From a virus: 26,679 bases of DNA. The stretch covers positions 1 through 26,679 of the IMG/VR virus record IMGVR_UViG_3300010334_000224; one strand, given 5' to 3'. Shown in pieces: positions 875 to 18,824 of this stretch (positions within the stretch are counted from its first letter, which is position 1; every line of letters begins with the position of its first letter). Under the pieces are notes generated by a model. It was given only the letters and a program-made list of their open reading frames with translations, was not told the DNA's origin and ran no database searches. The position numbers were made by a program, and so were the translations under genes.

Positions 875-949
875 TGGCAGGAAGTGCGGGAATCGAACCC
901 GCTCACCTTGGGTCAAAGCCAAGTATCTGCTCCAATCGATTTACTTCCA
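875..949 (-). tRNA. tRNA-Gln(TTG)
   Basis: The anticodon arm is CTTGG-CTTTGAC-CCAAG with anticodon TTG. The T arm GCGGG-TTCGATT-CCCGC is perfect. The acceptor is (T)GGAAGT/ACTTCC(T), followed by G and an encoded CCA. The open first pair and G73 match the unusual identity elements of bacterial tRNA-Gln. The stop codon of the HNH gene lies inside its 5' end. Confidence 0.9.
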
Positions 950-1666
950 CTTGTTGTTTATAGATTTTTTAAAATGTTTTTTTAATTTGGTGTGATTATT
1001 ACCTGTACCACTCAATCCAGCTTCAATTAGACATTTGTATATACTCATACCTTTATTATGATTTTCAATTATACTTTCTAAATGACCTTTCAAGAAAGGA
1101 AAAGAATCTTTATTTTTTTCATAGTGAAGTTTGTTACCGCAACTTATCGAACAGGTGTTTCCTTTTCCAAAGAAAATAGTTTGGCAACTAGGACACGTTT
1201 TAGTTTTAGGTGTAGTTTCCCAGTTTATTATTCTTTTTTTAATCCATCCTTCATTTAGGTATTGTTCTAATAAATCTCTATTAACTTTTTTACATTCTTT
1301 TGTAGAAAGATTCGCAATCCAAACAGTGCCGAACTGGGAATTACCTGATCCTTGCTGTGATTGTTTCATCACATCAGCTAATCTTTTCCTCAACCACCCA
1401 TACATTTTATTACTATTGCGCTGCTGAGTCAATGAGTTTATACACATCATTGCAGCGGCTTTTATTAAAGGAGAACAGTTTGGATATATTTTTACCAATA
1501 ATTGATGTGCTACATAATGCTCTTCTGGAAGAAGATCTACTAAATTTGTAGCCTCATCAGAACCACCAAGACAACGCGGTATTATATGATGTCTTTCTTT
1601 ATATCCTGTTATCGTTCGTGTTTTAGCACGCGAAATCAACAAATCATAATGTTTTTTATAATTCAT
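941..1666 (-). CDS. HNH homing endonuclease with zinc-finger-like C-terminal half
   Basis: The 241-aa protein has an N-terminal HNH nuclease motif: HHIIPRCLGG at residues 26-35, Asn41, then EEHYVAHQLL at 48-57. This is the usual layout of free-standing phage homing endonucleases. A second half carries a CPSC ... CSISC set (Cys158, 161, 172, 176) that may bind zinc, followed by a basic helix-rich tail suited to DNA recognition. It sits inside the tRNA array, and its TAA stop (941-943) overlaps the 5' end of tRNA-Gln. No Shine-Dalgarno is visible; an AAATA-containing sequence (GCTAAATA) lies just before ATG 1666. It is probably a mobile gene that spreads by cutting intein- or intron-free alleles or neighbouring loci. 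Its target cannot be read from the sequence. Confidence 0.88.
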   Translation of the reverse strand: MNYKKHYDLLISRAKTRTITGYKERHHIIPRCLGGSDEATNLVDLLPEEHYVAHQLLVKIYPNCSPLIKAAAMMCINSLTQQRNSNKMYGWLRKRLADVMKQSQQGSGNSQFGTVWIANLSTKECKKVNRDLLEQYLNEGWIKKRIINWETTPKTKTCPSCQTIFFGKGNTCSISCGNKLHYEKNKDSFPFLKGHLESIIENHNKGMSIYKCLIEAGLSGTGNNHTKLKKHFKKSINNKWK

Positions 1667-1706
1667 GCATTATTTAGCTTTTACTGAGCTAAACAGAATC
1701 AAAATG

Positions 1707-1779
1707 GCGAACCGTATGGGTTTCGATCCCATCTAAACAGTTTGAAAGACTGTTAGCCACGCCAGCCGCTCCACGGTTC
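1707..1779 (-). tRNA. tRNA-Glu(TTC)
   Basis: The acceptor GAACCGT/ACGGTTC is followed by G and CCA. The anticodon arm ACAGT-CTTTCAA-ACTGT has anticodon TTC. The D arm AGC...GCT has a GG-containing loop. The T arm is ATGGG/CCCAT with the somewhat unusual loop ATCGAAA. Confidence 0.9.
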
Positions 1780-1787
1780 TTGCTATT

Positions 1788-1861
1788 TGGTACCTCGTGA
1801 CAGAATCAAACTGCCGCAACCACCGTGTAAAGGTGGAGTTCTATCATTAAACTAACGAGGC
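1788..1861 (-). tRNA. tRNA-Val(TAC)
   Basis: The acceptor GCCTCGT/ACGAGGT (first pair G-U) is followed by A and CCA. The anticodon arm CCACC-TTTACAC-GGTGG has anticodon TAC. A T arm with TTTGATT-type loop and a compact D arm complete a class I tRNA. Confidence 0.9.
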
Positions 1862-1867
1862 ATGGTT

Positions 1868-1957
1868 TGGTGGATCCTGAAGGAGTTGAACCTAATCGCC
1901 AGCCGCCCTACATGTTTATGGCAACGGTTTTACAGACCGCCGTAGGGAACAGGATCC
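1868..1957 (-). tRNA. tRNA-Tyr(GTA)-like gene with missing D arm
   Basis: The acceptor GGATCCT/AGGATCC is perfect and is followed by A and CCA. A long hairpin CGGCGGT-CTGTAAA-ACCGTTG carries anticodon GTA (Tyr) in a canonical loop. Only about 8 bases lie between the acceptor and this hairpin, so there is no normal D arm. CCCTA before the hairpin can pair with TAGGG after it. The T arm is weak (AGG-TTCAACT-CCT). This is the same odd arrangement as the Arg-like gene at 23-106. It may be functional, processed in an unusual way, or decayed. Confidence 0.55.
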
Positions 1958-1980
1958 AATATCTATTTTTCTCAAAAAAT

Positions 1981-2071
1981 TGGCGGAATGACTGGGACTC
2001 GAACCCAGAAGACGAATCACTTCGTCCGACGGTTTAGCAAACCGCTCCAATACCATTATGGGACCATTCCA
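1981..2071 (-). tRNA. tRNA-Ser(GCT)
   Basis: This is a class II tRNA. The acceptor GGAATGG/TCATTCC is followed by G and CCA. The anticodon loop TTGCTAA has anticodon GCT. The long variable hairpin is GACGAA-GTGA-TTCGTC, and the T arm is CTGGG-TTCGAGT-CCCAG. Confidence 0.92.
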
Positions 2072-2075
2072 ATTT

Positions 2076-2149
2076 GGTGGACCTGGAGAGAATCGAACTC
2101 TCAATTCCGCGATGCAAGCGCGGTGTGTTCCCATTAGCACTACAAGCCC
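2076..2149 (-). tRNA. tRNA-Ala(TGC)
   Basis: The acceptor GGGCTTG/CAGGTCC includes G-U pairs and is followed by A and CCA. The anticodon arm CCGCG-CTTGCAT-CGCGG has anticodon TGC. The T arm GAGAG-TTCGATT-CTCTC is perfect. It ends 1 base before the stop of the MazG-like gene. Confidence 0.92.
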
Positions 2150-2150
2150 A

Positions 2151-2423
2151 TTATTTCTTAAAAATATTTGACCACGTGAGTAGTTTATTTAATTTTTGAT
2201 TTTTTGCTGAGATCACAGCATCTTCATTAACTATGCCATTGTCAATTAACAAATCAAGCATGCACAAAAAATCTCCAATTTCTTCTTCCAAATGCGCTCG
2301 GTTACTCACACCTTTGTAAACAGTGTCAATACCAAATCGAAAAGACTTGGAGATTGCTTGAATTATTTCAGCACATTCTTCTTGTGTGATCAGAAGAATT
2401 TCTTTTGTGGTTTCATCGTTCAT
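2151..2423 (-). CDS. MazG-like nucleotide pyrophosphohydrolase
   Basis: The 90-aa all-helical protein has the MazG/all-alpha NTP-PPase metal-binding signature: EECAE (Glu15, Glu16, Glu19) in helix 1 and EEEIGD (Glu48, Asp51) in the next helix. Enzymes of this family hydrolyse (d)NTPs to (d)NMP and pyrophosphate. In phages they are thought to clear unwanted or damaged nucleotides or to affect the alarmone balance. A single MazG domain of about 90-100 aa is normal for phage versions. ATG 2423 has AAGGA about 7 bases upstream. The gene is embedded in the tRNA array between tRNA-Gly and tRNA-Ala. The substrate cannot be told from sequence. Confidence 0.82.
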   Translation of the reverse strand: MNDETTKEILLITQEECAEIIQAISKSFRFGIDTVYKGVSNRAHLEEEIGDFLCMLDLLIDNGIVNEDAVISAKNQKLNKLLTWSNIFKK

Positions 2424-2453
2424 GCTAAATTCCTTGCTTGTTAACTATATAAA

Positions 2454-2527
2454 TGGAGCGGATGATGGGAATCGAACCCACGGCTTCAGCTTGGAAGGCT
2501 GAGGTATTACCATTATACGACATCCGC
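2454..2527 (-). tRNA. tRNA-Gly(TCC)
   Basis: The acceptor GCGGATG/CATCCGC is followed by T and CCA. The anticodon arm TCAGC-CTTCCAA-GCTGA has anticodon TCC. The D-loop contains GG and the T loop is TTCGATT. Confidence 0.93.
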
Positions 2528-2535
2528 GTTACAGC

Positions 2536-2612
2536 TGGTACGAGTGGTGGGATTCGAACCCACACTTTAGGGATTTTAAGTCCCTTATCTCTACCGATTG
2601 GATTACACTCGC
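2536..2612 (-). tRNA. tRNA-Leu(TAA) with short (class I) variable loop
   Basis: The acceptor GCGAGTG/CACTCGT is followed by A and CCA. The anticodon arm AGGGA-CTTAAAA-TCCCT has anticodon TAA, and the T arm is GTGGG-TTCGAAT-CCCAC. The variable loop is only AAAGT, whereas bacterial and most phage tRNA-Leu genes have a long class II variable arm. Confidence 0.85.
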
Positions 2613-2637
2613 ATTATGCATCAATGATTTTTAAATA

Positions 2638-3333
2638 TCAACACATATTCCATTTTATCAAAAGCGGATCCTCTAACCCTAGTTCTGCAAAGCACTTGAT
2701 TCTGAGCAAGCATGGATCACAATGACCACATGGCTGACCTGAGTCTGCAGGATCGTAACAACTGCTGGTGTTGCTGTAATCCATGCCCAGTGCGTTCCCG
2801 GTGCGAATAATATCTGTTTTTGTCATGTTCATCAATGGTGTGTGAATCTTTAATCTTTCACCTTCAAATCCAGCTCTGGTAGCCAGATTAGCCATGTTTT
2901 CATATGCTGCAATATATTCTGGGCGACAATCTGGGTATCGTGTCATGCCTTCAGGAGCATTGACACCAATAAAAATATCATTTGCATTTAATGTTTCTGC
3001 CCATGCCACAGCAAAGCTCAGAAACACAGTGTTGCGAGCCGGCACATATGTCACAGGAATCACACTGACCAAATCAGGCGCCAGTTCATCTTTGGGTACT
3101 TCAATGTCACTGGTCAGTGCAGATCTGCCGAATGCTCTTAAATCAATCTTTTGAATCACATGCTGTTCAACATTTGCTTGCTGAGCTAATGCTCGGGCAC
3201 AATTTAATTCATGAGCATGTCGTTGCCCGTAATCAAAACTCAGTGCGTATACTCGAAAATCCTGTGATGCCAAAGCCAGCATTGTTGCTGAGTCTAGTCC
3301 ACCACTTAATAAGACTACTGCTGCGTTTTTCAT
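2638..3333 (-). CDS. queC: 7-cyano-7-deazaguanine synthase QueC
   Basis: QueC converts 7-carboxy-7-deazaguanine to preQ0 with ATP and ammonia. PreQ0 is the precursor of queuosine in tRNA and of deazaguanine bases in some phage DNAs. The 231-aa length is normal for the family. The ATP pyrophosphatase PP-loop SGGLDS is at residues 10-15, a YPDCRPEY motif at 133-140, and the zinc ligands Cys192, 202, 205 and 208 are all present. ATG 3333 has AAGGA about 7 bases upstream. It lies between tRNA-Ile and tRNA-Leu in the same orientation. FolE, QueD and QueE are not in this window, so the phage either encodes them elsewhere or uses host intermediates. Whether the product feeds DNA modification or tRNA queuosine is open. 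Confidence 0.93.
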
Positions 3334-3347
3334 AATTTTCCTTGTAT

Positions 3348-3421
3348 TGGTGGCTCCAACGAGAATCGAACTCGTAACTATCAGATATCAGCCGATTATT
3401 ATACCATTTAACTACAGAGCA
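3348..3421 (-). tRNA. tRNA-Ile(GAT)
   Basis: The anticodon arm ATCGG-CTGATAT-CTGAT has anticodon GAT. The T arm ACGAG-TTCGATT-CTCGT is perfect. The acceptor TGCTCTG/TGGAGCC has a mismatched first pair and two G-U pairs, and is followed by A and CCA. It lies upstream of queC on the same strand. Confidence 0.85.
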
Positions 3422-4012: not shown

Positions 4013-4020
4013 GATAAATA
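4013..4020 (+). promoter_or_regulatory. T4-late-like promoter box GATAAATA (ART gene A)
   Basis: The box GATAAATA ends 4 bases before ATG 4025; the T4 late consensus is TATAAATA. The surrounding TCTAGATAAATATCTGATG is repeated before gene B. Confidence 0.6.
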
Positions 4021-4024
4021 TCTG

Positions 4025-4996
4025 ATGCGATATCATGAAATTTTACCAGAGACTCTGGATATTCCGACTCTTAACCCTGGCCAAACTAGGCCTGCTTTTT
4101 TAAGTGTTCGACCAGAGGACCAAAATAAAGCACTGGATTTAATGAGTCAAATCACAAACCTCAATCAAGAACTAAAAAATCTATCTAGTCTGAAGGATAA
4201 ATTTTATGCTGAAAAACGTGAATGGCTAGACAATCATAATTTTAAAACGAATTCAGATACTGTAAAACAGTTTAATAAAAAGATTGATTACGTTTTGGTA
4301 GCTCATAAGAAAACTGGTGAAAAAATAGATTTACTAAACCAAAACTACACTGAATTAGTACAAGGAGGTGCAGATCTAAGATCTGCTACACTAAGAGCTT
4401 ACGAGCATCTTAAAAAACACTGCAGCGATTTCTTGAATAAATCCAGTCAGGCACAAAAACTGCTTTATCGCGGCCTGAAAACTTATCCTTATTCATTCAG
4501 AGATTTTTCTTTTATCGGTAGATCGTGGGATGAGCGATTCACCAAAGATACTGCATGGGACACACACAGAAAAGTAAGTGCAGCAATGCGAGAAAATGGG
4601 TTTACTGCCACACGAGAAAACAGCATTATGTGCACATCTTCATATTGGGCTGCCAAACAATACGGTGAAGTTTATATGATATTTCCTATAAATGGATTCT
4701 CTTTTACTTGGAGTAGAACCCACGCTGACATGTTTAGTGATTTATTTGAAAGGTATCCACTCCGTGGCAACTGGAATAGTTTAATAAATGCTTTTGATAA
4801 TTCATATAACGAGGTTGATGAACAACAAAAACGCAGTATTGAGTCTAATTTTATCAAAAATGAATTGGAATTAGATCGCACTGACTTTCATGCAGCATTG
4901 CTGTCAGGGCATGAGATATATATTCACGGTCAATACTATGCGTTGAATATGAGTATATTTCAGGATTTGAATGATCTACTCAGAATTTATAGCTGA
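4025..4996 (+). CDS. ADP-ribosyltransferase-like protein A, putatively head-packaged
   Basis: The 323-aa product starts at ATG 4025 (MRYHEILPE); an in-frame upstream TTG is unlikely because gene B has the same start and the same upstream box. The N-terminal segment MRYHEILPE resembles the T4 capsid-targeting sequence, with cleavage expected after LPE. A coiled-coil region follows (about 30-120). Then comes an ART-like core: LLYRG (Arg149), FTATRENSIMCTSS (S-T-S-like, about residues 203-205), EVYMIFPINGFSFTWS, and SGHEIYIHGQYYAL with Glu297 as the likely catalytic Glu. The residue two before it, the substrate-specificity position, is Gly. R-S-E ARTs move ADP-ribose from NAD to proteins; T4 Alt does this to host RNA polymerase. 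Target unknown. A close tandem copy is gene B. Confidence 0.78.
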   Translation: MRYHEILPETLDIPTLNPGQTRPAFLSVRPEDQNKALDLMSQITNLNQELKNLSSLKDKFYAEKREWLDNHNFKTNSDTVKQFNKKIDYVLVAHKKTGEKIDLLNQNYTELVQGGADLRSATLRAYEHLKKHCSDFLNKSSQAQKLLYRGLKTYPYSFRDFSFIGRSWDERFTKDTAWDTHRKVSAAMRENGFTATRENSIMCTSSYWAAKQYGEVYMIFPINGFSFTWSRTHADMFSDLFERYPLRGNWNSLINAFDNSYNEVDEQQKRSIESNFIKNELELDRTDFHAALLSGHEIYIHGQYYALNMSIFQDLNDLLRIYS

Positions 4997-5022
4997 GATT
5001 GATTGTTTAATACCGTCCTCTA

Positions 5023-5030
5023 GATAAATA
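5023..5030 (+). promoter_or_regulatory. T4-late-like promoter box GATAAATA (ART gene B)
   Basis: GATAAATA ends 4 bases before ATG 5035. The box and flanks match those before gene A, so the promoter was duplicated with the gene. Confidence 0.6.
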
Positions 5031-5034
5031 TCTG

Positions 5035-6036
5035 ATGCGATATCATGAAATTTTACCTGAAACCTCGGATATTCTGACTCTTAACCCTGGCGAAACTAGG
5101 CCTGCTCCAATAGCTGCTCGACCTGAGGACCAAAATAAAGCACTGGATTTAATGAGTCAAATCACAGACCTCAAGCAAGAACTAAAAAATCTAGCCAGAC
5201 TGAGGGATGAGATGTATTACAAGACTGATAAATGGTTACGTGATAATCAATATCGTTATGAATCAGACACTGTAAAAAATTTTCAAAAAGAAATTGATGA
5301 TATCTCAGCCAAGCATATAGCAACTTCCGAGAAAATAGATTCACTATCTAAAGACTACACTTTTTTAATAAAAGGCAATGATGATCCTGATGCTGGTGCA
5401 CTAAGAGCTTACGAGCATCTTAAAGAACATTGCAGCGATTTCTTGAATAAATCCAGTCAGGCACAAAAACTGCTTTATCGCGGCCTTCAGAAGTATCCTA
5501 GTTCATTCAGAGGTTTTTCTTTTATTGGTAGATCGTGGGATGAGCGACTTACCAAAGATACTCCCCGTCAGACACACGAAAAATTAAGTGCAGTAATGCG
5601 AGAAAATGGGTTTACTGCCACACGAGAAAACAGTATCATGTGCACATCTTCATATCCAACTGCTGAAGAATATGGTGAAGTTTATATGATATTTCCTATA
5701 AATGGATTCTCTTTTACTTGGAGTAGAACCTACGCTGACATGTTTACTGATTTATTTGATAAGCTTCCATACTACCCTGCATACAGTGGCCACTGGAGTG
5801 CATTAATGAATCATTTTGATGATACCTACGGAGGAACCCAAGGCGATGAACAACAAAAGCGCAGCATTGAGTCTAATTTTATCAAAAATGACTTGAAATT
5901 AAATCGCACTGACTTTCATGCAGCATTGCTGTCAGGTCATGAGATATATATTCACGGTCAATACTATGCGTTACACTTACGTGCTTATTGGCAATTAAAT
6001 CAGCTACTCAAATCAAACTTTGGTGTAGGATATTGA
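5035..6036 (+). CDS. ADP-ribosyltransferase-like protein B, putatively head-packaged
   Basis: The 333-aa tandem paralogue of gene A has the identical targeting-like start MRYHEILPE. After it come the PEDQNKALDLMSQIT coiled-coil start, LLYRG (Arg149), FTATRENSIMCTSS (Thr204, Ser205), FPINGFSFTWSR and SGHEIYIHGQYYAL (catalytic-type Glu303; Gly at minus 2). The sequence matches gene A almost exactly in the ART core and at the start. It differs in the coiled coil (about 55-120) and in the loop after TWS (about 242-272). That pattern suggests a recent duplication with the variable parts under change. No Shine-Dalgarno is visible; the GATAAATA box sits 4 bases before the ATG. The gene converges with gene C, 4 bases away. 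Confidence 0.78.
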   Translation: MRYHEILPETSDILTLNPGETRPAPIAARPEDQNKALDLMSQITDLKQELKNLARLRDEMYYKTDKWLRDNQYRYESDTVKNFQKEIDDISAKHIATSEKIDSLSKDYTFLIKGNDDPDAGALRAYEHLKEHCSDFLNKSSQAQKLLYRGLQKYPSSFRGFSFIGRSWDERLTKDTPRQTHEKLSAVMRENGFTATRENSIMCTSSYPTAEEYGEVYMIFPINGFSFTWSRTYADMFTDLFDKLPYYPAYSGHWSALMNHFDDTYGGTQGDEQQKRSIESNFIKNDLKLNRTDFHAALLSGHEIYIHGQYYALHLRAYWQLNQLLKSNFGVGY

Positions 6037-6040
6037 TTGT

Positions 6041-6943
6041 TTACCGTCCTCTGATCAGATCAATTAAAAACCGATAATACTCATAAGAAAATGCGTAATA
6101 TTTTCCTTTGATGTATATTTCATGCTCAGATTCCAATGCTTGTTCAAGATTTTTATCATCAAATTCTGCGTATTCTATCAATCGTTTTTCAATATTTTCA
6201 GTTCCAGGTTGTAGCCTAGAAATAAGCTCTTTAAACGACGCAACAGTTTGGGCTGGCGTCATAGATAAAAGACTAGCCCATAAATCCTTGTACTTATGAC
6301 TCCACGTATATTTAAATCCGTCAAAAGGCACTATGATGTATGTGTTTTTAGATACACCCGAGGCATAATAATAAGCCATACCTAAATCACTGGTGCACAT
6401 GATACTGTTTCCTCGAGTCGCAGAAAAGCCGTTTGATTTCAGTGCATGATTTACAAATTTATGTATTTCTGGTACTGTATCTGTTGGATGGCGCTGTGCG
6501 TGTGCAGTGCCGATAAAAGCAGAACTTCTGTGAGGGTTTAAAAAATTTGAAGATCCACGATATAAACAACCGCCAAATTTACGAGTAACTGATAAAAATT
6601 CACCGCAAGTTTTAGTCAACTCGGTGTATATGCGATTTGTGCAAGCACTGGCTAGTTCTTGGAAATCTTGTTGAAGATATCTTAAACGATTTTCTTTTTC
6701 CAAAATTTGTGAGTTAAGTTCTTGAATTTTTGTACCAGGATCTGCAACTTGACTGGCATTTTGTGTAACATAATTTAACGTACTTCGTGCTTTCGATATG
6801 TCTTGAGTGATCGTTTGACATTCTTGTTCAATTTGTTTTGCTTGGTTTTGGACACTACGTGGTACACTAGCTATGTCTAAAATAAAAGGTACTTTCGCAC
6901 CTGGTTTTAGTTGATTTTCAGATAAAAATTCTTGAAGACGCAT
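6041..6943 (-). CDS. ADP-ribosyltransferase-like protein C, putatively head-packaged
   Basis: The 300-aa paralogue on the opposite strand starts MRLQEFLSE, a targeting-like segment with LSE as a possible prohead-protease site. It continues with LKPGAKVPF, a motif shared with genes F and G (LKPG..SP), and a coiled coil (about 30-100). The ART-like core has CLYRG (Arg129), FSATRGNSIMCTSD (183-185), FDGFKYTWS and SEHEIYIKGKYYAF. This member keeps a complete E-x-E (Glu273-His-Glu275), which ties the family to R-S-E ARTs most clearly. The start lies 4 bases after a GATAAATA box that is part of a palindrome shared with gene D. The last bases, TTACCGTCCTCT on plus, recur between genes A and B. Confidence 0.8.
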   Translation of the reverse strand: MRLQEFLSENQLKPGAKVPFILDIASVPRSVQNQAKQIEQECQTITQDISKARSTLNYVTQNASQVADPGTKIQELNSQILEKENRLRYLQQDFQELASACTNRIYTELTKTCGEFLSVTRKFGGCLYRGSSNFLNPHRSSAFIGTAHAQRHPTDTVPEIHKFVNHALKSNGFSATRGNSIMCTSDLGMAYYYASGVSKNTYIIVPFDGFKYTWSHKYKDLWASLLSMTPAQTVASFKELISRLQPGTENIEKRLIEYAEFDDKNLEQALESEHEIYIKGKYYAFSYEYYRFLIDLIRGR

Positions 6944-6947
6944 GCAG

Positions 6948-6955
6948 TATTTATC
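6948..6955 (-). promoter_or_regulatory. T4-late-like promoter box GATAAATA (ART gene C)
   Basis: GATAAATA on minus ends 4 bases before the ATG at 6943. It is one half of the dyad TATTTATCTGATAAATA (6948-6964). Confidence 0.6.
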
Positions 6956-6956
6956 T

Positions 6957-6964
6957 GATAAATA
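6957..6964 (+). promoter_or_regulatory. T4-late-like promoter box GATAAATA (ART gene D)
   Basis: GATAAATA ends 4 bases before ATG 6969. It is the plus-strand half of the divergent dyad; one base separates it from the box of gene C. Confidence 0.6.
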
Positions 6965-6968
6965 ACAG

Positions 6969-7844
6969 ATGCGCTACCACGAACTTGTAACAGAAAATTT
7001 TACCAAGATAGAACTACTAGGCCTGTCAGGTGATGCGCTTAGGAAAGCGCAGGCTTTAATCGATCAAATGTCAGCTATAAAACAACAGCAAATTCTGATT
7101 GCACAACAGAGACGCGAAGTTAAGTCATCGTTGGAAAAATTAGGAAATCCTCCTTCTGATCCAATAAAAGCCGAAAAACTACGAACAATTCTTGACGATG
7201 ATGAAATTCGCCAAAAAATGGTTGGGCTCATCAAAGAAATGGAAAAGTTGTATAATGAGCTAAGATTTTTAGTACAAGACAATGTAAATCTGTCACAGGT
7301 TATGCGAAAACTACAAGCAAATTGCGGACAGTTTCTCAGAGATGCAAAATATGCAAGTCGTTTGTTGTTTAGAGGTAAAGATGGTTCTCGGAGTTTAAAT
7401 ACACCTAGTTTTGTCGGCGATTCAATACCAGACAGACGACCCAAAGACTTAAACAAAGTAATTCACGATAATCTTAATCGTGTCATGCTAGGCATGGGTT
7501 ATACTGCTACGCGAGGCAACAGCATCATGTGCACCAGTGATTTAGCAATGGCTAGAGAGTATGGCAGTCCTTACTTGATATTTCCGCTGGATGGGTTTTC
7601 TTTTACTTGGAGTACAAGAATAAAAGACTTGTACACAGACTATTTTATGAACAGAACCACCTGGGAAGATAGTATAAAATATTTTGATAGTGAAGAAGAT
7701 TTTATCAAAAATGAGCTAAAATTAAAGCAAACTGACTTTATTTCTGCATTAAAATCAGGTCACGAAATATACATAAAAGGCAGGTACTATGCCTTGTCTC
7801 TTTATTACTATAAAGACCTAGCTCAAGAACTAGACTTTACTTGA
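6969..7844 (+). CDS. ADP-ribosyltransferase-like protein D, putatively head-packaged
   Basis: The 291-aa paralogue has the targeting-like start MRYHELVTE and a coiled coil (about 25-110). The ART-like core has LLFRG (Arg135), YTATRGNSIMCTSD (188-190), AREYGSPYLIFPLDGFSFTWS and SGHEIYIKGRYYAL (Glu266; Gly at minus 2). The segment between TWS and the last motif is short (about 50 aa), so this is one of the most compact members and may show the minimal fold. It is divergent from gene C and shares its palindromic promoter. As with the other members, the ART call rests on motif order, not on a measured alignment. Confidence 0.78.
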   Translation: MRYHELVTENFTKIELLGLSGDALRKAQALIDQMSAIKQQQILIAQQRREVKSSLEKLGNPPSDPIKAEKLRTILDDDEIRQKMVGLIKEMEKLYNELRFLVQDNVNLSQVMRKLQANCGQFLRDAKYASRLLFRGKDGSRSLNTPSFVGDSIPDRRPKDLNKVIHDNLNRVMLGMGYTATRGNSIMCTSDLAMAREYGSPYLIFPLDGFSFTWSTRIKDLYTDYFMNRTTWEDSIKYFDSEEDFIKNELKLKQTDFISALKSGHEIYIKGRYYALSLYYYKDLAQELDFT

Positions 7845-7888
7845 TTCTGACTCAAGGCTCCATACAAAGTTTTATTTTCTTTTGTCAG

Positions 7889-8647
7889 TTATCTAGCTAA
7901 TGTTGCATTAGTTTTGGTCATGTCTGCACAGGTATAAGCCTGATAACTAGCTTTGAGTTTTTCAGGCATTGGTATTTTCACAATAGGCACACGAAAACCT
8001 TGTGCTACTTCAAGAAAACTTTTTGTACTACCTGTGCCAATATTCCAAATACCACTTTCAGGTATATTCAAAAACTTTTTGTGTAGATCTATCACGGTGC
8101 TGACAGGCACAAAATCTCGGTGATAATTCTCACTGCCCTCAAACACTCTTATTTCGCCTACTCTCTCAGCCTGCAGTCTAAACTGTGTAAACGGACTGGC
8201 TTGAGTTCCTTTGTGTTCTTCATTTGAGCCATATACGTTAAAATAACGGAACCCTTGAACAACAATATGTTCAAAACATTTTTTTTGAGCATATCTTTCA
8301 AACATATATTTGCTCCAGGCATACGGTGTTCGTGGATCAGGCGCAGCATTTTCATTAAAATCTTGACCGAGACCGTATATACTGGCTGAACTTGAATATT
8401 GTAGGTTTACTTTGTGTCCAATACATTCATCTAAAATCCAACAACTGAAATCATAGTTTTGGCGCATGATTTTGTTTACATCATGCTCAGTTGTAGAACT
8501 GATGGCACCTATGTGAATTATCCAATCCAGACCTTGAATGTTGGGTACCTTCTCTCCCCATTCATAAGTGCTGACTTCATGTTCTGATAAAGCAGTCAAC
8601 ATGTGACTACCGATAAAACCTTTATAACCTGTGAGAAGTATTTTCAT
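7889..8647 (-). CDS. hldD: HldD-like ADP-heptose 6-epimerase (SDR family), C-terminally short
   Basis: The 252-aa extended SDR protein has a GYKGFIG NAD(P)-binding loop (7-13), YSSSASIYG (84-92) and YAWSK (Tyr109, Lys113). It also carries motifs typical of ADP-L-glycero-D-manno-heptose 6-epimerase: FRYFNVYGSNEEHKGTQASP, FEGSENYHRDFVPV and GIWNIGTGSTKSF. HldD makes the heptose donor for the LPS inner core, which points to a Gram-negative host. The protein stops after YQAYTCADMTKTNATLAR, where bacterial HldD usually continues for roughly 25 more residues, so it is slightly truncated. No Shine-Dalgarno is seen. A GTTAAATA box (8673-8680) lies 25 bases upstream. It interrupts the ART cluster on the opposite strand; whether it is active is unknown. 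Confidence 0.85.
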   Translation of the reverse strand: MKILLTGYKGFIGSHMLTALSEHEVSTYEWGEKVPNIQGLDWIIHIGAISSTTEHDVNKIMRQNYDFSCWILDECIGHKVNLQYSSSASIYGLGQDFNENAAPDPRTPYAWSKYMFERYAQKKCFEHIVVQGFRYFNVYGSNEEHKGTQASPFTQFRLQAERVGEIRVFEGSENYHRDFVPVSTVIDLHKKFLNIPESGIWNIGTGSTKSFLEVAQGFRVPIVKIPMPEKLKASYQAYTCADMTKTNATLAR

Positions 8648-8670
8648 AATTTTAGTGCTATTTGTGCACG

Positions 8671-8689
8671 GTATTTAACATAAATACCA
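8671..8689. promoter_or_regulatory. divergent late-promoter-like dyad GGTATTTA-ACA-TAAATACC
   Basis: This perfect 8+8 inverted repeat contains CATAAATA on plus (8680-8687, 33 bases before ART gene E) and GTTAAATA on minus (25 bases before the hldD start). It is the second palindromic late-box pair in the ART locus. Confidence 0.55.
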
Positions 8690-8720
8690 GATATTATTAT
8701 AACTTTTTACGGAAACCAGC

Positions 8721-9758
8721 ATGCAAATCAATGAAATAATAAGCCGAGAATTGTCACGAGCAGCATCTAAACAAAAAATTGAGGTCGGTGGGTTCTTAAA
8801 CAAACACCTACTCGTCAGAACAATAAAACAAGACTGCAGTGATTTTTTGTCTAAAGCCAAAGGCACAGATGGTGTTTTTCGTGGTATTGCAGATTATGCA
8901 GGATTTCCTGTGGCATATGAATCTCAATCACGCACCAGAAATGCCAGAGATACGTCGCAAGAAATACAAAAAAAATTCGATGAACTGTTGATTTCCCAGG
9001 GCTTTTCTGCTGTTCGAGGCAACAGTATATTTGTGTCCGGCAGTTTGCCGATGGCAATTGGTTACGGAGAACCATATTTTATCATACCTAAAAATGGTTT
9101 TACGTTCACTTGGAGTCCTGAGATAAAAGATTTTTACACAGGTGGATTAGCTTTGAATAACAAAAGTTGGGCAGGATTTGTTAGTAAATGGTCTATTTCG
9201 CCTGACCACAACGAAACGATTCGCAAAATTGACAAAATTGTCAAACCATTGATCAAAGATGTTAATGCAATATGGTCAGCAACAGTTAATCGAAATTCAG
9301 AACCAGTTCTTGGCGTCAATTGGAATCAAGAATTTGGAAAACGATGGGCAATTCACAGTCAATGGCTGGAATCTATTTCACGATTACTCAATGTTATTCA
9401 AGAATCTTTAAAGAATCCAGAGCATATTGTGTATGAAGGCAAACAATTAAGTCAAAGACTGCAAAATAGTGTAAATCATTTTGAAGCTATCAAAAACATT
9501 TTTGCACCAAGAAAAGACTATCAAGAACTTTTAAATTTATTGTCAAATCAAGTATCATTTGATACGCCGGCTTCTGAAATAAATACACCAGAACAAGCAC
9601 AACGTATTATACAAAATTTAGGAATGAAAAATAATATCGATTTACATTCTGCGATATTATCTGAAAATGAGATACTGATAAATGGTTCGTATTACGCATT
9701 CGACTATCATACGTATCAAGATTTGCATGATAAATTATTTTCAGTCAAACCAGGGTAA
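8721..9758 (+). CDS. ADP-ribosyltransferase-like protein E, putatively head-packaged
   Basis: The 345-aa paralogue lacks the long N-terminal coiled coil. It starts MQINEIISRE, a targeting-like segment, and goes almost directly to TIKQDCSDFL, GVFRG (Arg54), FSAVRGNSIFVSGS (about 105-108), GEPYFIIPKNGFTFTWS and SENEILINGSYYAF. It keeps a full E-x-E (Glu315-Asn-Glu317). A long, mostly helical insert of about 170 residues separates TWS from that motif, as in F and G. CGGA lies 9 bases before the ATG, and the late box is 33 bases upstream, so this mRNA has a normal leader. It is the first gene of an E-F-G run with gaps of 15 and 19 bases. Confidence 0.8.
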   Translation: MQINEIISRELSRAASKQKIEVGGFLNKHLLVRTIKQDCSDFLSKAKGTDGVFRGIADYAGFPVAYESQSRTRNARDTSQEIQKKFDELLISQGFSAVRGNSIFVSGSLPMAIGYGEPYFIIPKNGFTFTWSPEIKDFYTGGLALNNKSWAGFVSKWSISPDHNETIRKIDKIVKPLIKDVNAIWSATVNRNSEPVLGVNWNQEFGKRWAIHSQWLESISRLLNVIQESLKNPEHIVYEGKQLSQRLQNSVNHFEAIKNIFAPRKDYQELLNLLSNQVSFDTPASEINTPEQAQRIIQNLGMKNNIDLHSAILSENEILINGSYYAFDYHTYQDLHDKLFSVKPG

Positions 9759-9773
9759 TCAGGAAATCAACAT

Positions 9774-10895
9774 ATGCCAGCTAAAAAAACCAATGTATTG
9801 AAGCCAGGTGATAGATCACCAATTAATATTGATATGCCAAATATCGATCCTGCTTTATTAAGCAAAGCTGCTGAATTAAAAGCTAGAATGGCTGAAATAT
9901 CCAAAGAATTGAATCGACTTAAAAAAGAAAAAGACAAACAAGTAATACAATCTGAAAAAACTCAGCAAGAAATCAATAAAAAGTCATTTTCTAATTATGC
10001 TAAAATAATACAAAAGGACTGTTCAGAGTATTTACAAGCAGTTGCTGCTGCCAAAAAAGTTTTATTCAGAGGTACAGAACCAGGTGATCATCCTTTGTCA
10101 GCATATGTGGGTAGAAGTCATAAGAAAAGAAAAACCAAAGATACATCGTCAGCAATACAGACAGGAGTTGATAAAATATTAGCAAGCAAAGGATTTACTG
10201 CTCTCAGACACAACAGTATATTCACTTCAAGTCGGTTAGAAATAGCGTCGGGCTATGGAATACCATACATAATATTTCCAAAAAACGGCTTTAGTTTTAC
10301 GTGGAGTCCTAAGCTTACCGATTTTTATCAAGAAATGGTACAAGACGAAGAAATTTATGATTGGTCAGAATTTGTTAATATACATGGTGCTAGCACTTTA
10401 GACTATACAATTTTAAATATGTTTCCACGTATAGGCTATTATCTTGGAATATTTGAAGTTAGTCTTGAAAAGCATCCAAAACTCAAGAGTTTATACCTTT
10501 CTATTAAAAATCTCAATGAAAACATCGACGAGATGCTCGAGGAAATCGATTATGATTATCCTAACATCAACGGAGCAGATATAAATCGTTATATTTCTCA
10601 GGTGATGGAAATTATTCGAGCATTGGAAACGGAACCTGAAATCCAGGATATTCTAAAAAGTAAACCTGAATTAGCAAAAGATTTTAAAAAAATGAAGAGT
10701 GAAATTGGTAAGTTTACAGCTGAATGGCAGAAAAATAAAAATTTAAACAGATCTGACATTATATTTCAGAAACTCGGATACACTAACCAAAATCTTAACG
10801 CAGCATTAAAATCAGGCCATGAAGTCATGATCAATGGCGAATATTATGCATTGGAATATGCTGTATACAAAGATATACTAAAATACTTTAAATAA
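9774..10895 (+). CDS. ADP-ribosyltransferase-like protein F, no targeting segment
   Basis: The 373-aa paralogue starts MPAKKTNVLKPGDRSP, a basic start without the M-x-x-x-E-h-h-x-E targeting segment of A-E. A coiled coil follows (about 25-70). The core has IIQKDCSEYL, VLFRG (Arg99), FTALRHNSIFTSSR (about 151-153), IPYIIFPKNGFSFTWS and SGHEVMINGEYYAL (Glu350; Gly at minus 2). A helical, acidic insert of about 160 residues separates TWS from the last motif. AGGAAA lies about 8 bases before the ATG. The lack of a targeting segment suggests the protein is made and acts in the infected cell rather than being packaged, like T4 ModA/ModB compared with Alt; this is inference. Confidence 0.78.
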   Translation: MPAKKTNVLKPGDRSPINIDMPNIDPALLSKAAELKARMAEISKELNRLKKEKDKQVIQSEKTQQEINKKSFSNYAKIIQKDCSEYLQAVAAAKKVLFRGTEPGDHPLSAYVGRSHKKRKTKDTSSAIQTGVDKILASKGFTALRHNSIFTSSRLEIASGYGIPYIIFPKNGFSFTWSPKLTDFYQEMVQDEEIYDWSEFVNIHGASTLDYTILNMFPRIGYYLGIFEVSLEKHPKLKSLYLSIKNLNENIDEMLEEIDYDYPNINGADINRYISQVMEIIRALETEPEIQDILKSKPELAKDFKKMKSEIGKFTAEWQKNKNLNRSDIIFQKLGYTNQNLNAALKSGHEVMINGEYYALEYAVYKDILKYFK

Positions 10896-10914
10896 AATCT
10901 TGGAACAATAACAA

Positions 10915-12045
10915 ATGCCACCAAAAAAAACCAATGTATTAAAACCAGGTAGTAAATCACCCTTTGTGGTAGATACATCGAACTTGGATCCAGAATTATT
11001 AGCTAGGGCAAAAACAATAAAGGCTAAAATAGCTGAAATTGAAGCTCAGATAGCCAGTCTTCGAGCAGAAGAAAAAAAATCAAAAACAGCTTCCCAAAAA
11101 GCTGAAAAAAAGATTGGTGCTCCGTCAATGGTTCGCTATGTTGAATTAATACAAAAGGACTGTTCAGAATATATACAAGCAGTTATAGCAACTGGCAAAG
11201 TATTATATCGTGGCAGTAGCAATACAAGCATGCCAGCGTATGTTGCTCGCAGTCGTAGCAACCGGTCACCAGATAATACACCGTTATCTATCCAGAAAGG
11301 TTTTGACAAGTTATTGTCAAGTCAGGGCTTTACTGCTCTCAGAGGCAACAGTATATTCACTACGAGTAGACAACTACAGGCTGCACGTTACGGAGAACCA
11401 TACATAATATTTCCAAAAAACGGCTTTAGTTTTACATGGAGTCCAAAAGTACCAGATTTTTATCGTGGGTTGATAGAGGAACATGAAATACCCACATGGT
11501 CTGAATTTGTAAGCCATTATAGCCAAGATACTTCTTCGATTTATGTAGATCTAGAGATTCTAAGTGACACTCTTAATTCTATAATCTATGCTCTTCAAGG
11601 GATTAGATTTGAATTTCCTATACACCAGAAACAAACTGAAAAAATCGAGGATGAGATTTACAATCTTCAAGAACTGCTAGAGGAAGACTACGAAATCTCA
11701 CCATATCCAAGTGTAGCGATTAAACAAGCAAATAATTATATTAAACGTTTGACAAAAATTATTCAGGGGATAGAAATTTCTCCTGAAATCAAATCTATTT
11801 TTTATAAAGATAAAGATGCTAAAGATTATCTAAACAGTATAAAGAACTATCAGAATACATTACAGAAAATAAGCAAAGAATTAAAAATTCCAGAATTAGC
11901 TGACACTGCAGTACTTCGCAATCTTGCATATACTAACCAAAATCTTGAAGCAGCATTAAAATCAGACAACGAAGTCATGATCAATGGTGAGTATTATGCG
12001 TTCAAATATGATTTATACTATGACATACTAAAATACCTCCGATAG
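10915..12045 (+). CDS. ADP-ribosyltransferase-like protein G, no targeting segment
   Basis: The 376-aa sister of gene F has a near-identical start (MPPKKTNVLKPGSKSP) and C-terminal region (EVMINGEYYAF). The core residues are VLYRG (Arg99), FTALRGNSIFTTSR (149-151), GEPYIIFPKNGFSFTWS and SDNEVMINGEYYAF (Asp351-Asn-Glu353). The minus-2 residue is Asp, unlike the Gly of F. The helical insert between TWS and the last motif differs most from F. A GGA lies about 11 bases before the ATG, a weak ribosome site. It is the last gene of the E-F-G run, and an 8-codon frame with a similar start follows it. Confidence 0.78.
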   Translation: MPPKKTNVLKPGSKSPFVVDTSNLDPELLARAKTIKAKIAEIEAQIASLRAEEKKSKTASQKAEKKIGAPSMVRYVELIQKDCSEYIQAVIATGKVLYRGSSNTSMPAYVARSRSNRSPDNTPLSIQKGFDKLLSSQGFTALRGNSIFTTSRQLQAARYGEPYIIFPKNGFSFTWSPKVPDFYRGLIEEHEIPTWSEFVSHYSQDTSSIYVDLEILSDTLNSIIYALQGIRFEFPIHQKQTEKIEDEIYNLQELLEEDYEISPYPSVAIKQANNYIKRLTKIIQGIEISPEIKSIFYKDKDAKDYLNSIKNYQNTLQKISKELKIPELADTAVLRNLAYTNQNLEAALKSDNEVMINGEYYAFKYDLYYDILKYLR

Positions 12046-12095: not shown

Positions 12096-12527
12096 ATGTC
12101 AATCATCAAAGCCGGAATAATCCCTTGCATCAAAAAAGACAAACAACTATTCATGTTATTCATGAAACCCAGTGATCCTAAGTTTGGCGGCCCTGATTAT
12201 CAAATTGCCAAAGGTCACATAGACAAAGATGAATCCCCACTGCAAGCAGCAATTCGTGAAGGGCACGAAGAACTAGGCTTGAAATCTACCAACATAGACC
12301 ATGTGTGGCCTGTGGGGATTGTGAAAAATACCAAGGTCTATGCATGTGAGGTTTACAGTATGAAAGACTTTGACCAGCCCGATTATGAAACTGGCAGCAC
12401 ACGATGGATGACACCAAATGAGTTTTTGGAAACTGGTCGTCACATGCATCGAGGCATCGTCAGAGCAGCAGCCAGAAAACTAACATTGTTAGAATCGTTT
12501 CCTGAACTGCGCACTGTTATTTGGTGA
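12096..12527 (+). CDS. Nudix hydrolase
   Basis: The 143-aa protein has a complete Nudix box, GHIDKDESPLQAAIREGHEELGL in fit with G-x5-E-x7-R-E-h-x-E-E-x-G-h (Gly40, Glu46, Arg54, Glu55, Glu58, Glu59, Gly61). These enzymes cleave nucleoside diphosphate-X compounds. Possible substrates include ADP-ribose, NADH, dinucleoside polyphosphates and capped RNA; none can be chosen from sequence. The place right after the NAD-consuming ART-like genes makes ADP-ribose or NAD turnover an attractive idea, but the EELGL box and short length also fit Ap4A-hydrolase-like members. The ribosome site is weak. An 8-codon frame (ATG 12064) ends just upstream. Confidence 0.88.
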   Translation: MSIIKAGIIPCIKKDKQLFMLFMKPSDPKFGGPDYQIAKGHIDKDESPLQAAIREGHEELGLKSTNIDHVWPVGIVKNTKVYACEVYSMKDFDQPDYETGSTRWMTPNEFLETGRHMHRGIVRAAARKLTLLESFPELRTVIW

Positions 12528-12708: not shown

Positions 12709-12736
12709 ATTATACAGCAACACCCGAGAATGTCAA
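12709..12736 (-). promoter_or_regulatory. sigma70-type promoter, perfect consensus, for the tRNA-Ile/tRNA-Met pair
   Basis: On minus, TTGACA (12731-12736), a 16-base spacer and TATAAT (12709-12714). Transcription would start near 12702, about 15 bases before the 5' end of tRNA-Ile(TAT). The -35 overlaps the stop codon of the 520-aa gene. Confidence 0.85.
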
Positions 12737-14295
12737 CGTCGTTCTCTGCCTAAACCTTTTTCTGTTTTACCTCTTTTAGACACTGCGCCTGGTGGGCGAA
12801 TATCCACACGCTTTTTAGGCATTACCAGCACAGGTTTATCACTATCTAATTTAGGTGCTTCTGGGTCTACAGCTTGGGGTTTAATAAATTTTTCATTGTT
12901 CTTGAGTATTTTGAAGGTTATTTTGCCATTTTCACCCTTGGACCAATAGCTTTTGTCAAAAGTTAATTTCACACCAGTGACTGCATCGCCTGGATAATCT
13001 GCACTAAATCCATTGAGTGTGATAGTGCTTTGTGTCGAGCTAGCATCTGTATAAACCTGTAATACAGCACTGTGATTAAGAATATCCGACGCAGCATCAC
13101 TAAATTTAGTTTTGGTATTCACATAATCACACACTTTGTCAGCCACGATCATCATCAGTGCGTGAACAGGAACTACTGCTGTGTTTTTTCTCTTGGTTAA
13201 CAAATCCTGGTACCAACCTTCAAGTTTAGCACTAAGCAGATTCTGACCTAATATTTCTTCACCTAAGCCTAATTTCTTGGCTTTTACATTCATAATTTGC
13301 TGAGTTTCGTCGCTGTCCATTAAATCAAAGTATTTGGCTAATTCTAGAGGACCAGTGTAGTGTGTGCCTTTATCTAGAATTTCTAAAATTCTGACTTCTT
13401 CTGTGTATTTTTTACGTATAGTCTTGCCGTATTTCGTACCATCTATTTCTCGCAAAGATTCTACCAAATTCTTGGCGCTGGCCATTGCACCTAGCCCTTC
13501 TTTGGTGCTGATCTTGACTGTTTTACCGTTGGCAGCTGTTAAAACACTGTCACTCAATCCTCCAGTAGCTCCCGGATTGAAGCTGATGGTTGCACTTGCT
13601 AAGCTGGTATTTTTACCAATATAAGCATCGATACCTTTGTCTGCTGACCCAGTGATGGTCATGCCTTTGATAAAAGCAATGGGCTGAAGAAGTTCACAGA
13701 AATACTGTTTGAATGCTTCTGCATTCATATTTCCACGAGGAATAACAACTGGAAAATCTTTGGCTGCTAAAAACGCACTCATTGCATGCAGTTCATCGCT
13801 GTGCTCGCCAAACTTTTTCATGACTTGATCTTGAATATTACCCGGACTTAAATTATCAAATCTTTCTAGAATTTCAGACGGTTTGTAACCTGCGTTTTCT
13901 TTTTCACTTGTCTTGCTAGAAAATTTATATTCACCGGGTATAGCAGTATTTGGCCAATTATTTTCGTTTCTATTGGCATGAATATCTTTAAAATATCTTC
14001 CTAGGTAAACATCTCTGCCGTCGTCGTCAATGAAACGTGCAATAGCAAATGCTAAATTTTTAGCTTGTGGATTGGTCCAATCAATCGGGAAATTCAAAGA
14101 TGCTTGAGCTTTTTTCAACGCTGCATCCATCTCTTGTGGGTCTGTGAACTTGCCTGAGTTAGGATAAAACGTCAGACTACCAAAAGTCAGAGTTTTACCT
14201 GCAGCATTTTTAAATACTTCGCCTGATTTTCTACGAGCTAATCCCACGCTTTCATCCAATAAAATATTTTCTAAAATGTTTATAAACTGTCTCAT
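12733..14295 (-). CDS. 520-aa putative head-associated protein, possible nuclease-like core
   Basis: The protein starts MRQFINILE, a targeting-like segment with ILE as a possible prohead-protease site, directly after a GATAAATA box, which fits a late virion gene. The middle (about 200-275) has PIAFIKGMTITGSADKG, then GGLSDSV and KTVKISTKEGLGAMASAKNL. The Asp ... V-K-I-S-T-K spacing is reminiscent of PD-(D/E)XK nucleases with S-x-K in place of E-x-K, but this is only motif resemblance. A helical part follows (about 290-400). The C-terminal tail is basic and proline-rich (MPKKRVDIRPPGAVSKRGKT). I do not recognise a named family. It could be an internal head protein delivered with the DNA or a structural protein. 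Confidence 0.7.
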   Translation of the reverse strand: MRQFINILENILLDESVGLARRKSGEVFKNAAGKTLTFGSLTFYPNSGKFTDPQEMDAALKKAQASLNFPIDWTNPQAKNLAFAIARFIDDDGRDVYLGRYFKDIHANRNENNWPNTAIPGEYKFSSKTSEKENAGYKPSEILERFDNLSPGNIQDQVMKKFGEHSDELHAMSAFLAAKDFPVVIPRGNMNAEAFKQYFCELLQPIAFIKGMTITGSADKGIDAYIGKNTSLASATISFNPGATGGLSDSVLTAANGKTVKISTKEGLGAMASAKNLVESLREIDGTKYGKTIRKKYTEEVRILEILDKGTHYTGPLELAKYFDLMDSDETQQIMNVKAKKLGLGEEILGQNLLSAKLEGWYQDLLTKRKNTAVVPVHALMMIVADKVCDYVNTKTKFSDAASDILNHSAVLQVYTDASSTQSTITLNGFSADYPGDAVTGVKLTFDKSYWSKGENGKITFKILKNNEKFIKPQAVDPEAPKLDSDKPVLVMPKKRVDIRPPGAVSKRGKTEKGLGRERR

Positions 14296-14301
14296 AATAG
14301 G

Positions 14302-14309
14302 TATTTATC
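14302..14309 (-). promoter_or_regulatory. T4-late-like promoter box GATAAATA (520-aa gene)
   Basis: GATAAATA on minus, followed by CCTATT and the ATG at 14295 (6 bases). No Shine-Dalgarno. Confidence 0.6.
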
Positions 14310-17303: not shown

Positions 17304-18824
17304 TTACTTGCCAGGGGGGTTGTACGTTTCTTTGTATTCAGCACTAGCGATACGGTAATATCCTTGACTGCCATCTTTTACCAAATAATCGCCTGGTTTA
17401 AGGATCATAGACTCTCCCCACGGTGCAGTAAAAGTAACTGTTTTAGTTCCTTTGTATGCAGCTACCATGCGTGGAGATTGTTCTGGAATTACTAATCCGC
17501 CAATGTCACCTGAATAGAGTTTGGGGAATTTAGCAGCCTTGACTACATAGTTTTCTTTGCTGGGGCCACTCATAATAATGTCGCCGGGTTCAGCTGTATT
17601 TGTCGTTTCTTTTCCATCAGATGTTACAGTAATAACCTGTCTTTGCTCTCCAGACACTGTGTATGACATTGCTGGCATAGTGCCAGGAGTGCCTCCCTTA
17701 ACAAACTTATATTTTTTAGCTTGTTTGTGTGTTGGCAAGAACTTAAGTTCAGAAGCTATACGATGAATATCTTCGATAGGCTTTTCTTGTTCAACTTCAG
17801 GAGCAATTGGCTCAGCTGCAGCAGCAGCTGGCACTTCGGGTGTTATCACAGCTGGATCTTGTGTTGCTGGTGCTTCTGCTTCTGTTATTAGATCAGCATA
17901 TCTGCGAAAAAACTTAGAGTCCATCTTATATTCCTTTAATGTTTCGTCATTATTTTGAACAAAATCTTTTGGTTTGTCAATAGATTTTGGTTGTGCAATA
18001 TTTTGTCTTTTGTGAGATGCTATCCATTCGACAGCTTCTGGTTTGCTAGGCGGTTGATTAAGAAATTTATTGATGATTGCGTCAGCAAGAGATATATTTC
18101 TAGATTTTTCATCACGACTCGTGATATCATTATTTATGCCGATAAATCTAGTGTTGGCACGTTCAGCAGCAGCTGGCCAATCTCGGCGACCTAAGCGAGA
18201 GTAATCTCGTTCCCCTGGAGATATATTTGCATATTCTGAAGGTGCATTCCCTATCCACTGTATTTTACCAAACGATGACTCGTAAATTTTTATATTATTC
18301 TTTACTAAATCATATACCTCTTGTGCATAAGATGGGTCTACTACTCGACCAACTCCCCATTTTTCTCGTTGTTCTTGTTCTCTACTTTGTTGTCTGTTAA
18401 GGGTAGTATCAAAACTAGCTGTGACTAATATCAACATAATGTCATATCCTAAAGCAGATAATTGATTCGTTACTTCAAAAATACGCTGAGGACTTTTTCC
18501 TGTACTATCAAAATACATTCCGAGTCGCCCATCAAGGGTTAAACTTTTACGACTTTGAACTTTATCCCATGCCATATCCCATTGATCTGGAGTTAAAACA
18601 CCTCCTTGAGATCGCCCTTTTCTGATCATCATTTCACTAAAATCATCAATATTGATTTTTCTCAACCCGCTGTGACCAAATAGTTTGTTGGCTGTGGTAC
18701 TTTTCCCTGCTCCAGGAGGACCAATCATGATTACAGCTTTGAATATATGTGGATCCAGAACGCCTTCATCAATCTCAATAGATTCTGTTAAGATACCAAG
18801 ATAATGACGGAGATCGATGTTCAC
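17304..18824 (-). CDS. P-loop kinase fused to a second head-protein-like module
   Basis: The 506-aa protein starts at GTG 18824, overlapping the stop of the 515-aa gene (TAGTG). Residues 1-15 (MNIDLRHYLGILTE) look like a capsid-targeting segment. Residues 30-230 form a polynucleotide-kinase/zeta-toxin-like P-loop domain with Walker A GPPGAGKS (35-42), NIDDF (58-62) and a RxxxR-type region (NRQQSREQEQREKWG). Residue 301 is Met, starting MDSKFFRRYADLITEAEAP, again a targeting-like segment, and it has its own Shine-Dalgarno. The C-terminal half has an Ala/Pro/Glu-rich linker and a repeated small beta-type motif (GDIIMSGPSKENYVVKAAKF and PGDYLVKDGSQGYYRI). It could phosphorylate a nucleic acid, nucleotide or protein; the substrate is unknown. 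It may give one fused product and a separate 206-aa product. Confidence 0.75.
   Translation of the reverse strand: MNIDLRHYLGILTESIEIDEGVLDPHIFKAVIMIGPPGAGKSTTANKLFGHSGLRKINIDDFSEMMIRKGRSQGGVLTPDQWDMAWDKVQSRKSLTLDGRLGMYFDSTGKSPQRIFEVTNQLSALGYDIMLILVTASFDTTLNRQQSREQEQREKWGVGRVVDPSYAQEVYDLVKNNIKIYESSFGKIQWIGNAPSEYANISPGERDYSRLGRRDWPAAAERANTRFIGINNDITSRDEKSRNISLADAIINKFLNQPPSKPEAVEWIASHKRQNIAQPKSIDKPKDFVQNNDETLKEYKMDSKFFRRYADLITEAEAPATQDPAVITPEVPAAAAAEPIAPEVEQEKPIEDIHRIASELKFLPTHKQAKKYKFVKGGTPGTMPAMSYTVSGEQRQVITVTSDGKETTNTAEPGDIIMSGPSKENYVVKAAKFPKLYSGDIGGLVIPEQSPRMVAAYKGTKTVTFTAPWGESMILKPGDYLVKDGSQGYYRIASAEYKETYNPPGK
17925..17937 (-). promoter_or_regulatory. internal ribosome binding site inside the kinase fusion
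   Basis: On minus, AAAGGAATATAAG directly precedes in-frame ATG 17924, giving GGA at normal spacing. Initiation here would yield a 206-aa protein (17304-17924) starting MDSKFFRRYADLITEAEAP. Confidence 0.55.

Follow-up and report, generated by a model that had tools for sequence, protein, structure and literature searches.

Seven paralogous genes in a T4-like phage fragment

The stretch of DNA analyzed here, referred to below as the window, comprises 26,679 bases of the IMG/VR record IMGVR_UViG_3300010334_000224. It is a fragment of a T4-like phage that encodes UvsX, UvsY, a gp32-like single-strand binding protein and a large terminase, and it carries 10 tRNA genes. Between positions 4025 and 12045 lie seven paralogous open reading frames (ORFs) with products of 291-376 residues, designated ART1 to ART7 (ART, ADP-ribosyltransferase). 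ART1 (4025-4996), ART2 (5035-6036), ART4 (6969-7844), ART5 (8721-9758), ART6 (9774-10895) and ART7 (10915-12045) are on the plus strand and ART3 (6041-6943) is on the minus strand. An all-versus-all BLASTP comparison linked every pair with E ≤ 1e-14. Chance likeness was rejected because these E-values are too low, and the relatedness of the seven genes, claimed in a preliminary description of the locus, was thus confirmed. The genes are also clustered as described, but they do not form a single run, since the third gene is inverted and an epimerase gene (7889-8647) splits the array between ART4 and ART5.

Sequence identity is about 70% between ART1 and ART2, 45-48% between ART6 and ART7, and near 30% for the remaining pairs. 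Each of the seven proteins matches PHROG 11975, a family of unknown function, with an E-value of 8.5e-23 or better; a Pfam scan of the seven returned nothing except coiled-coil noise. In ART1-4, an N-terminal tag is followed by a coiled-coil of roughly 100 residues and then by a C-terminal domain of some 180 residues. The tag reads MRYHEILPE (followed by T) in ART1 and ART2, MRLQEFLSE (followed by N) in ART3 and MRYHELVTE (followed by N) in ART4. ART5 has a tag-like start, MQINEI, and its coiled-coil is nearly absent. ART6 and ART7 start without a tag (MPAKKTNVLKPG and MPPKKTNVLKPG, respectively) and retain an LKPG linker. In ART5-7, a strand with the motif TWS and a conserved glutamate are separated by an insert exceeding 100 residues, which is long and helical in ART5.

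Late-promoter octamer, N-terminal tag and gene turnover

The window contains 8 copies of the octamer GATAAATA, compared to 1.9 expected and a maximum of 7 in 200 simulated sequences. For four of the eight copies, the distance to the ATG of the following gene is exactly 12 bases; they precede ART1 (4013-4020, plus strand), ART2 (5023-5030, plus), ART3 (6948-6955, minus) and ART4 (6957-6964, plus). Another is located 14 bases upstream (14302-14309) of the gene for a 520-residue protein of unknown function with a tag-like start (12733-14295, minus), which is likely co-regulated. The octamer also precedes a virion gene, as it is present 15 bases upstream (20379-20386) of the gene for a virion structural protein of PHROG 13484 (18824-20371, minus). 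No GATAAATA was found at that upstream position for the uvsX, gp32 and terminase genes of the window. The sequence CATAAATA, 42 bases upstream of the ATG of ART5 (8679-8686, plus), could serve ART5-7 and the Nudix hydrolase gene that follows them.

The sequence NATAAATA has been described as the late promoter of T4-like cyanophages (PMC2984593). Over all loci, it is present within 22 bases of the start of 27 of 115 tagged family genes, 24 of 64 tagged other genes and 43 of 627 untagged other genes, and is thus enriched at tagged genes. Its position has a sharp maximum at -12/-13, both for family genes and for the others. Many loci have a copy at this position, among them the window (4013, 5023, 6948 and 6957) and the contigs L008, L107 and L135. 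This suggests that late transcripts without a leader form a general class in these phages. ART1-4 seem to be expressed late.

When written as M[KR]xx[EQD][ILFVM], the tag is found in 118 of 169 family ORFs and in 67 of 745 other ORFs of the same loci, in counts that include related genes, overlapping loci and some fragmentary ORFs; start codons were picked by rule, and both the tag and the promoter pattern were defined after the sequences had been viewed. Many of the 67 tagged ORFs outside the family encode a kinase (see below) or other possible effectors. In T4, the internal proteins IPII and IPIII start with MKTYQEFIAE and Alt starts with MELITE, and six residues are cleaved off Alt (annotation of X15811). 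The T4 protease cleaves after L/I-x-E (PMC9026906). A matching site is present in ART1 and ART2 (L-P-E) and in ART3 (L-S-E); V-T-E in ART4 is a near match, and the tag-like start of ART5 has no site.

In the Agrobacterium jumbo phage Atu_ph07, all 11 of 11 paralogues have L-x-E at residues 6-8. Gene counting, checked against gp2, gp18 and gp70, places the Atu_ph07 array at gp53-gp63, with the accessions AUZ94865-AUZ94875, inside coding sequences (CDS) 31-76. This is one of three clusters that supply most of the 131 virion proteins, and 29 proteins from the cluster as a whole, two of which had been predicted, were detected in purified virions by mass spectrometry (PMC6102473). At the level of the cluster, a virion location in one relative is thus supported by published data.

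The evolution of the array was followed by comparison with one sister contig, L002, whose DNA is approximately 96-97% identical around most of the array. The ratio of nonsynonymous to synonymous substitution rates (dN/dS) was 0.33 for ART2, 0.43 for ART3, 0.37 for ART5, 0.85 for ART6 and 0.27 for ART7, versus 0.05 for queC, 0.07 for the epimerase gene and 0.13 for the Nudix gene. ART1 and ART4 have no orthologue in L002, where the flanks of ART4 join within about 80 bases. For this genome pair, the values are suggestive of diversifying or relaxed selection with quick gene gain and loss.

Searches of IMG/VR with several sub-alignments yielded relatives in more than 60 phage contigs. A 77-member profile matched all 50 of 50 whole phage records; because these had been chosen for holding a relative, only the copy numbers are informative. 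The window has 7 copies; one pair of near-identical contigs has 11 and 13, and two further contigs have 14. The maximum, 18, was reached in each of two contigs that possibly represent one phage. Atu_ph07 has 13 family matches, 11 of them as consecutive genes. In a tree, each of 12 Atu_ph07 domains has its nearest neighbour within the Atu_ph07 genome, so that this expansion is separate from the one in the window. Two pattern scans of bacterial genomes did not detect any relative, and an origin of the family from the host is thus unsupported. PHROG 11975 was matched by 110 of 112 family domains; apart from PHROGs of unknown function and coiled-coil noise, scans of Pfam, NCBIfam and PHROG with single proteins and with the 77- and 112-member alignments gave nothing. 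PADLOC found no good defence match for ART1-7, and KptA was not found in the three family-bearing records in which it was looked for.

The commonest neighbour of the family is a P-loop kinase. It was identified in 24 contig groups, which had been defined manually from the list of loci, and in 23 of these it lies no more than 150 bases from a family gene. The kinase of the window (17304-18824, minus) is zeta-toxin/AAA_33-like according to Pfam, has a C-terminal extension and a tag-like start (GTG; VNIDLRHYLGILTESIE), and lies 5 kb from the array. Other kinase loci, including L024:9122-9808, L094:9203-10699 and L038:20371-22740, often encode a tag as well. In Atu_ph07 gp53 and in L094, the kinase is fused to the ART-like domain, a fusion reflected in PHROG 12810, which covers both parts. 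As a guess, the kinase might phosphorylate the product of the ART-like domain. The window also encodes a tagged protein with short repeats (YAKEVIGGRWPEAE; 23044-24405, minus), relatives of which occur in 12 contig groups, in 6 of them beside ART-like genes.

The conserved domain and its possible function

The alignment of ART1-7 contains 30 invariant columns, among them (ART1 numbering) R149-G150, R197-x-N199-S200-I201, P221, T228-W229-S230, E297, G302 and Y304-Y305-A306. The preliminary description had assigned the family to the ARTs by an order of R, S-T-S and E-x-E motifs. The order itself holds as R / (T/S)-S / E, but S-T-S and E-x-E are not present as stated. An arginine in the context [YF]RG is found in all seven proteins where the first core strand is predicted; this residue (R135 in ART4 numbering, used from here on) is kept in 95 of 112 members and replaced by histidine in 7. 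Histidine is the counterpart of this arginine in the other ART class, and the exchange also requires a single base change. In the S/T-rich strand, NSI[FM][CT][TS][SG], T189 is T or S in 93 of 112 members; the position of S-T-S reads C-T-S, T-S-S, T-T-S or V-S-G in ART1-7, and a literal STS occurs in none. E266 is E in 105 of 112 members and D in 6. Among the seven, E-x-E is only present in ART3 (SEHE) and ART5 (SENE); the others have SGHE or SDNE.

Because the coiled-coil swamped a Foldseek search with the whole of ART4, its C-terminal domain, residues 108-291, was folded by itself. AlphaFold2 returned a confident model with a mean predicted local distance difference test (pLDDT) score of 92.4 and a predicted template modeling (pTM) score of 0.89. 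Its order, beta(YRG)-beta-alpha-beta(TS)-alpha-beta-beta-alphas-beta(E)-beta, is an ART-like sequence of strands and helices. In a viral structure library, Foldseek gave 28 matches with E ≤ 0.001, apparently all from the same family (proteins of jumbo and marine phages, mostly unnamed). The first tellingly named match outside it, a phage PARP catalytic-domain protein with an E-value of 0.43, is just a hint. Membership in the ART superfamily is thus plausible, but unproven. In our judgement the modeled domain probably has an ART fold, and ART catalysis is also more likely than not, though somewhat less probable than the fold.

We propose, with a probability of roughly 55%, that the seven genes encode recently expanded, fast-evolving, ART-like effectors, of which the tagged ones are packaged and injected in the manner of T4 Alt. 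ART1-4, and probably ART5, would be expressed late from T4-type late promoters, and the N-terminal capsid-targeting sequence would bring ART1-4, perhaps also ART5, into the prohead. There the prohead protease would trim the tagged proteins after the L-x-E-type site. Like Alt, the trimmed proteins would be injected alongside the phage genome, and in the newly infected cell they would modify host (or defence) proteins using NAD+. The untagged ART6 and ART7 would act in the producing cell, like ModA and ModB. A program of host modification or an arms race, as envisaged in the preliminary description, has become more plausible through the late promoter, the tag, the Atu_ph07 virion cluster, the dN/dS values and the copy turnover; the target and the activity are its conjectural parts.

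Several observations weigh against this proposal. The first glutamate of E-x-E is conserved in only 13 of 112 family members and 2 of the 7 proteins of the window, and a literal E-x-E arginine-specific chemistry was rejected for this reason. R156, R182, N184, S185 and D220 are better conserved than the presumed catalytic R135, which may point to a different chemistry, and the complete set of R, S/T and E is missing from 34 of 112 members. When the domain model was compared with the PDB by Foldseek, no ART was retrieved and the top matches were noise, and profile searches of Pfam, NCBIfam and the PDB did not reach any known ART family (those of PDB sequences gave coiled-coil noise or nothing). 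An hhalign comparison of the family with Alt, ModA and ModB gave probabilities of 1-4%. However, T4 ModA and ModB themselves match no Pfam ART model and hhalign does not join Alt with ModA/ModB, so that the profile negatives carry little weight and the hhalign result, whose positive control failed, was given none. As to packaging, an N-terminal L-x-E is found in 56 of 165 family ORFs versus 123 of 713 other ORFs; since it is generally common near N termini, it is weak evidence outside Atu_ph07. The post hoc choice of patterns and the counting of related genes mean that p-values overstate the enrichments. Finally, with an octamer this near to the ATG the transcripts may be leaderless, because at a distance of 12 bases a start of the T4 type, as generally known for T4 late promoters, falls at or next to the ATG.

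Some of these points also suit other explanations. The proteins could be packaged internal head proteins with an ART-like fold but no ART activity, such as decoys, IPI-like inhibitors of defence nucleases or DNA-condensing core proteins, whose many copies would provide many binding specificities. The late promoter, the tag and the virion-cluster evidence apply equally to such proteins, rapid evolution with gain and loss suits target-binding decoys, and the incomplete triads and the fold search without an ART fit as well. On the other hand, 111 of the 112 members have E or D at position 266, and R156, R182, N184, S185, P206 and D220 are near-invariant. Such conservation exceeds the needs of a scaffold, and decoys usually lose polar clusters; we consider this explanation unlikely. 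We also regard it as unlikely that the proteins are enzymes of another fold, in which a shared polar core (R156, R182-x-N184-S185, D220, E266 and C119) accommodates some other ligand, possibly a nucleotide that is processed together with the zeta-like kinase. The adjacent or fused kinase, the best-conserved residues outside the ART triad, the negative PDB search despite a high-confidence model and the missing sequence link to ARTs would agree with this, but the succession of LYRG strand, SIFCTS strand-helix-AxxYG, YxIFP strand and EIxIxGxYYA hairpin is the order of the ART architecture, and the first viral fold match outside the family is the PARP-domain protein. Finally, the proteins could be ART-like enzymes made only after infection, like ModA and ModB, and never packaged, their N-terminal motif being the conserved start of the coiled-coil. 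This would suit the untagged ART6 and ART7 and the tag of the ART4 model, which is predicted to be helical and runs almost without a break into the coil. We consider it improbable: the late-promoter octamer precedes ART1-4 and a virion structural gene but is absent before uvsX, gp32 and the terminase genes, the tag is shared with unrelated neighbours such as the kinase, and the Atu_ph07 copies lie within a virion-protein cluster.

The proposal of packaged ART-like effectors can tentatively be extended to a two-part injected system, in which a tandemly growing battery of tagged ART-fold enzymes is combined with the tagged zeta-toxin-like kinase, adjacent or fused. If it exists, which we consider possible but doubtful, this system would be widespread in large T4-like phages and would comprise at least a dozen head-borne effectors acting before phage gene expression. 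It is not described as such in the literature we found.

Neighbouring genes and comparison with known systems

Directly 3' of ART7 lies the Nudix hydrolase gene (12096-12527, plus), whose product could take part in ADP-ribose recycling. In T4, NudE, annotated as active on ADP-ribose, is encoded near the internal-protein genes; here the Nudix gene adjoins ART7. The large terminase gene (20387-22448, minus) is in two ORFs and apparently broken by a split intein: the N part reaches REHGCLEGAATVQIKFPDG and the C part contains YDLFEVEKNHRFYANGFLVKN followed by CEF. An HNH endonuclease-like ORF (22509-23042) adjoins it. A run of tRNA genes (875-3421) includes a phage queC gene of the queuosine/7-deazaguanine pathway (2638-3333, minus) and, between tRNA genes, an HNH-type homing-endonuclease-like ORF (941-1666, minus), which was recognized by reading the sequence and has no Pfam match.

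Proteins that a phage injects are active from the very start of infection, and apart from T4 Alt, the internal proteins and virion RNA polymerases the known examples are few. With the tag and the late promoter, injected effectors could be listed from sequence alone, and Atu_ph07 on Agrobacterium would be a cultured model. If the proteins are ARTs, this phage ART expansion would far exceed the three of T4 and would be a probable interface with NAD-based defences.

The closest parallel is T4 Alt, the head-packaged mono-ADP-ribosyltransferase. As proposed here, both would depend for packaging on a short propeptide at the N terminus, which is MELITE in Alt and MRYHELVTE in ART4, and both would be injected and modify host proteins in an NAD-dependent way; the motif order of ART1-7 also resembles the R / STS / E of Alt. 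Alt, however, is a single protein of 682 residues that matches PF03496, has E-x-E and shows no detectable sequence or profile similarity to ART1-7, whereas the proteins of the present family have 291-376 residues, mostly lack E-x-E and reach 18 copies. ModA and ModB are ART domains of comparable size, about 200 residues, and LYRG ... FTTS ... EQEWMIPIGKYKI in ModB parallels LYRG ... CTS ... HEIYIKGRYYAL here; they differ in being two adjacent untagged genes, and they have no profile match to ART1-7. The T4 proteins IPI, IPII and IPIII are several small packaged proteins, and their capsid-targeting sequence MKTYQEFIAE resembles M[KR]xxE[IL]xxE, but their mature domains are unrelated to ART1-7. 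IPI is a counter-defence inhibitor (PMC9026906). PHROGs 11975, 15932 and 12810 cover the proteins of the family without an assigned function. A survey of jumbo-phage ARTs and PARPs (Iyer et al. 2021, PMC7824862) states that several ARTs are encoded by these phages in every group, and the parts of that survey available to us describe neither this family nor its tandem expansion, tag or kinase partner. New here are the T4-type late-promoter octamer at ART1-4, the capsid-targeting-like tag, the partnership with a kinase, and the fast evolution with gene turnover.

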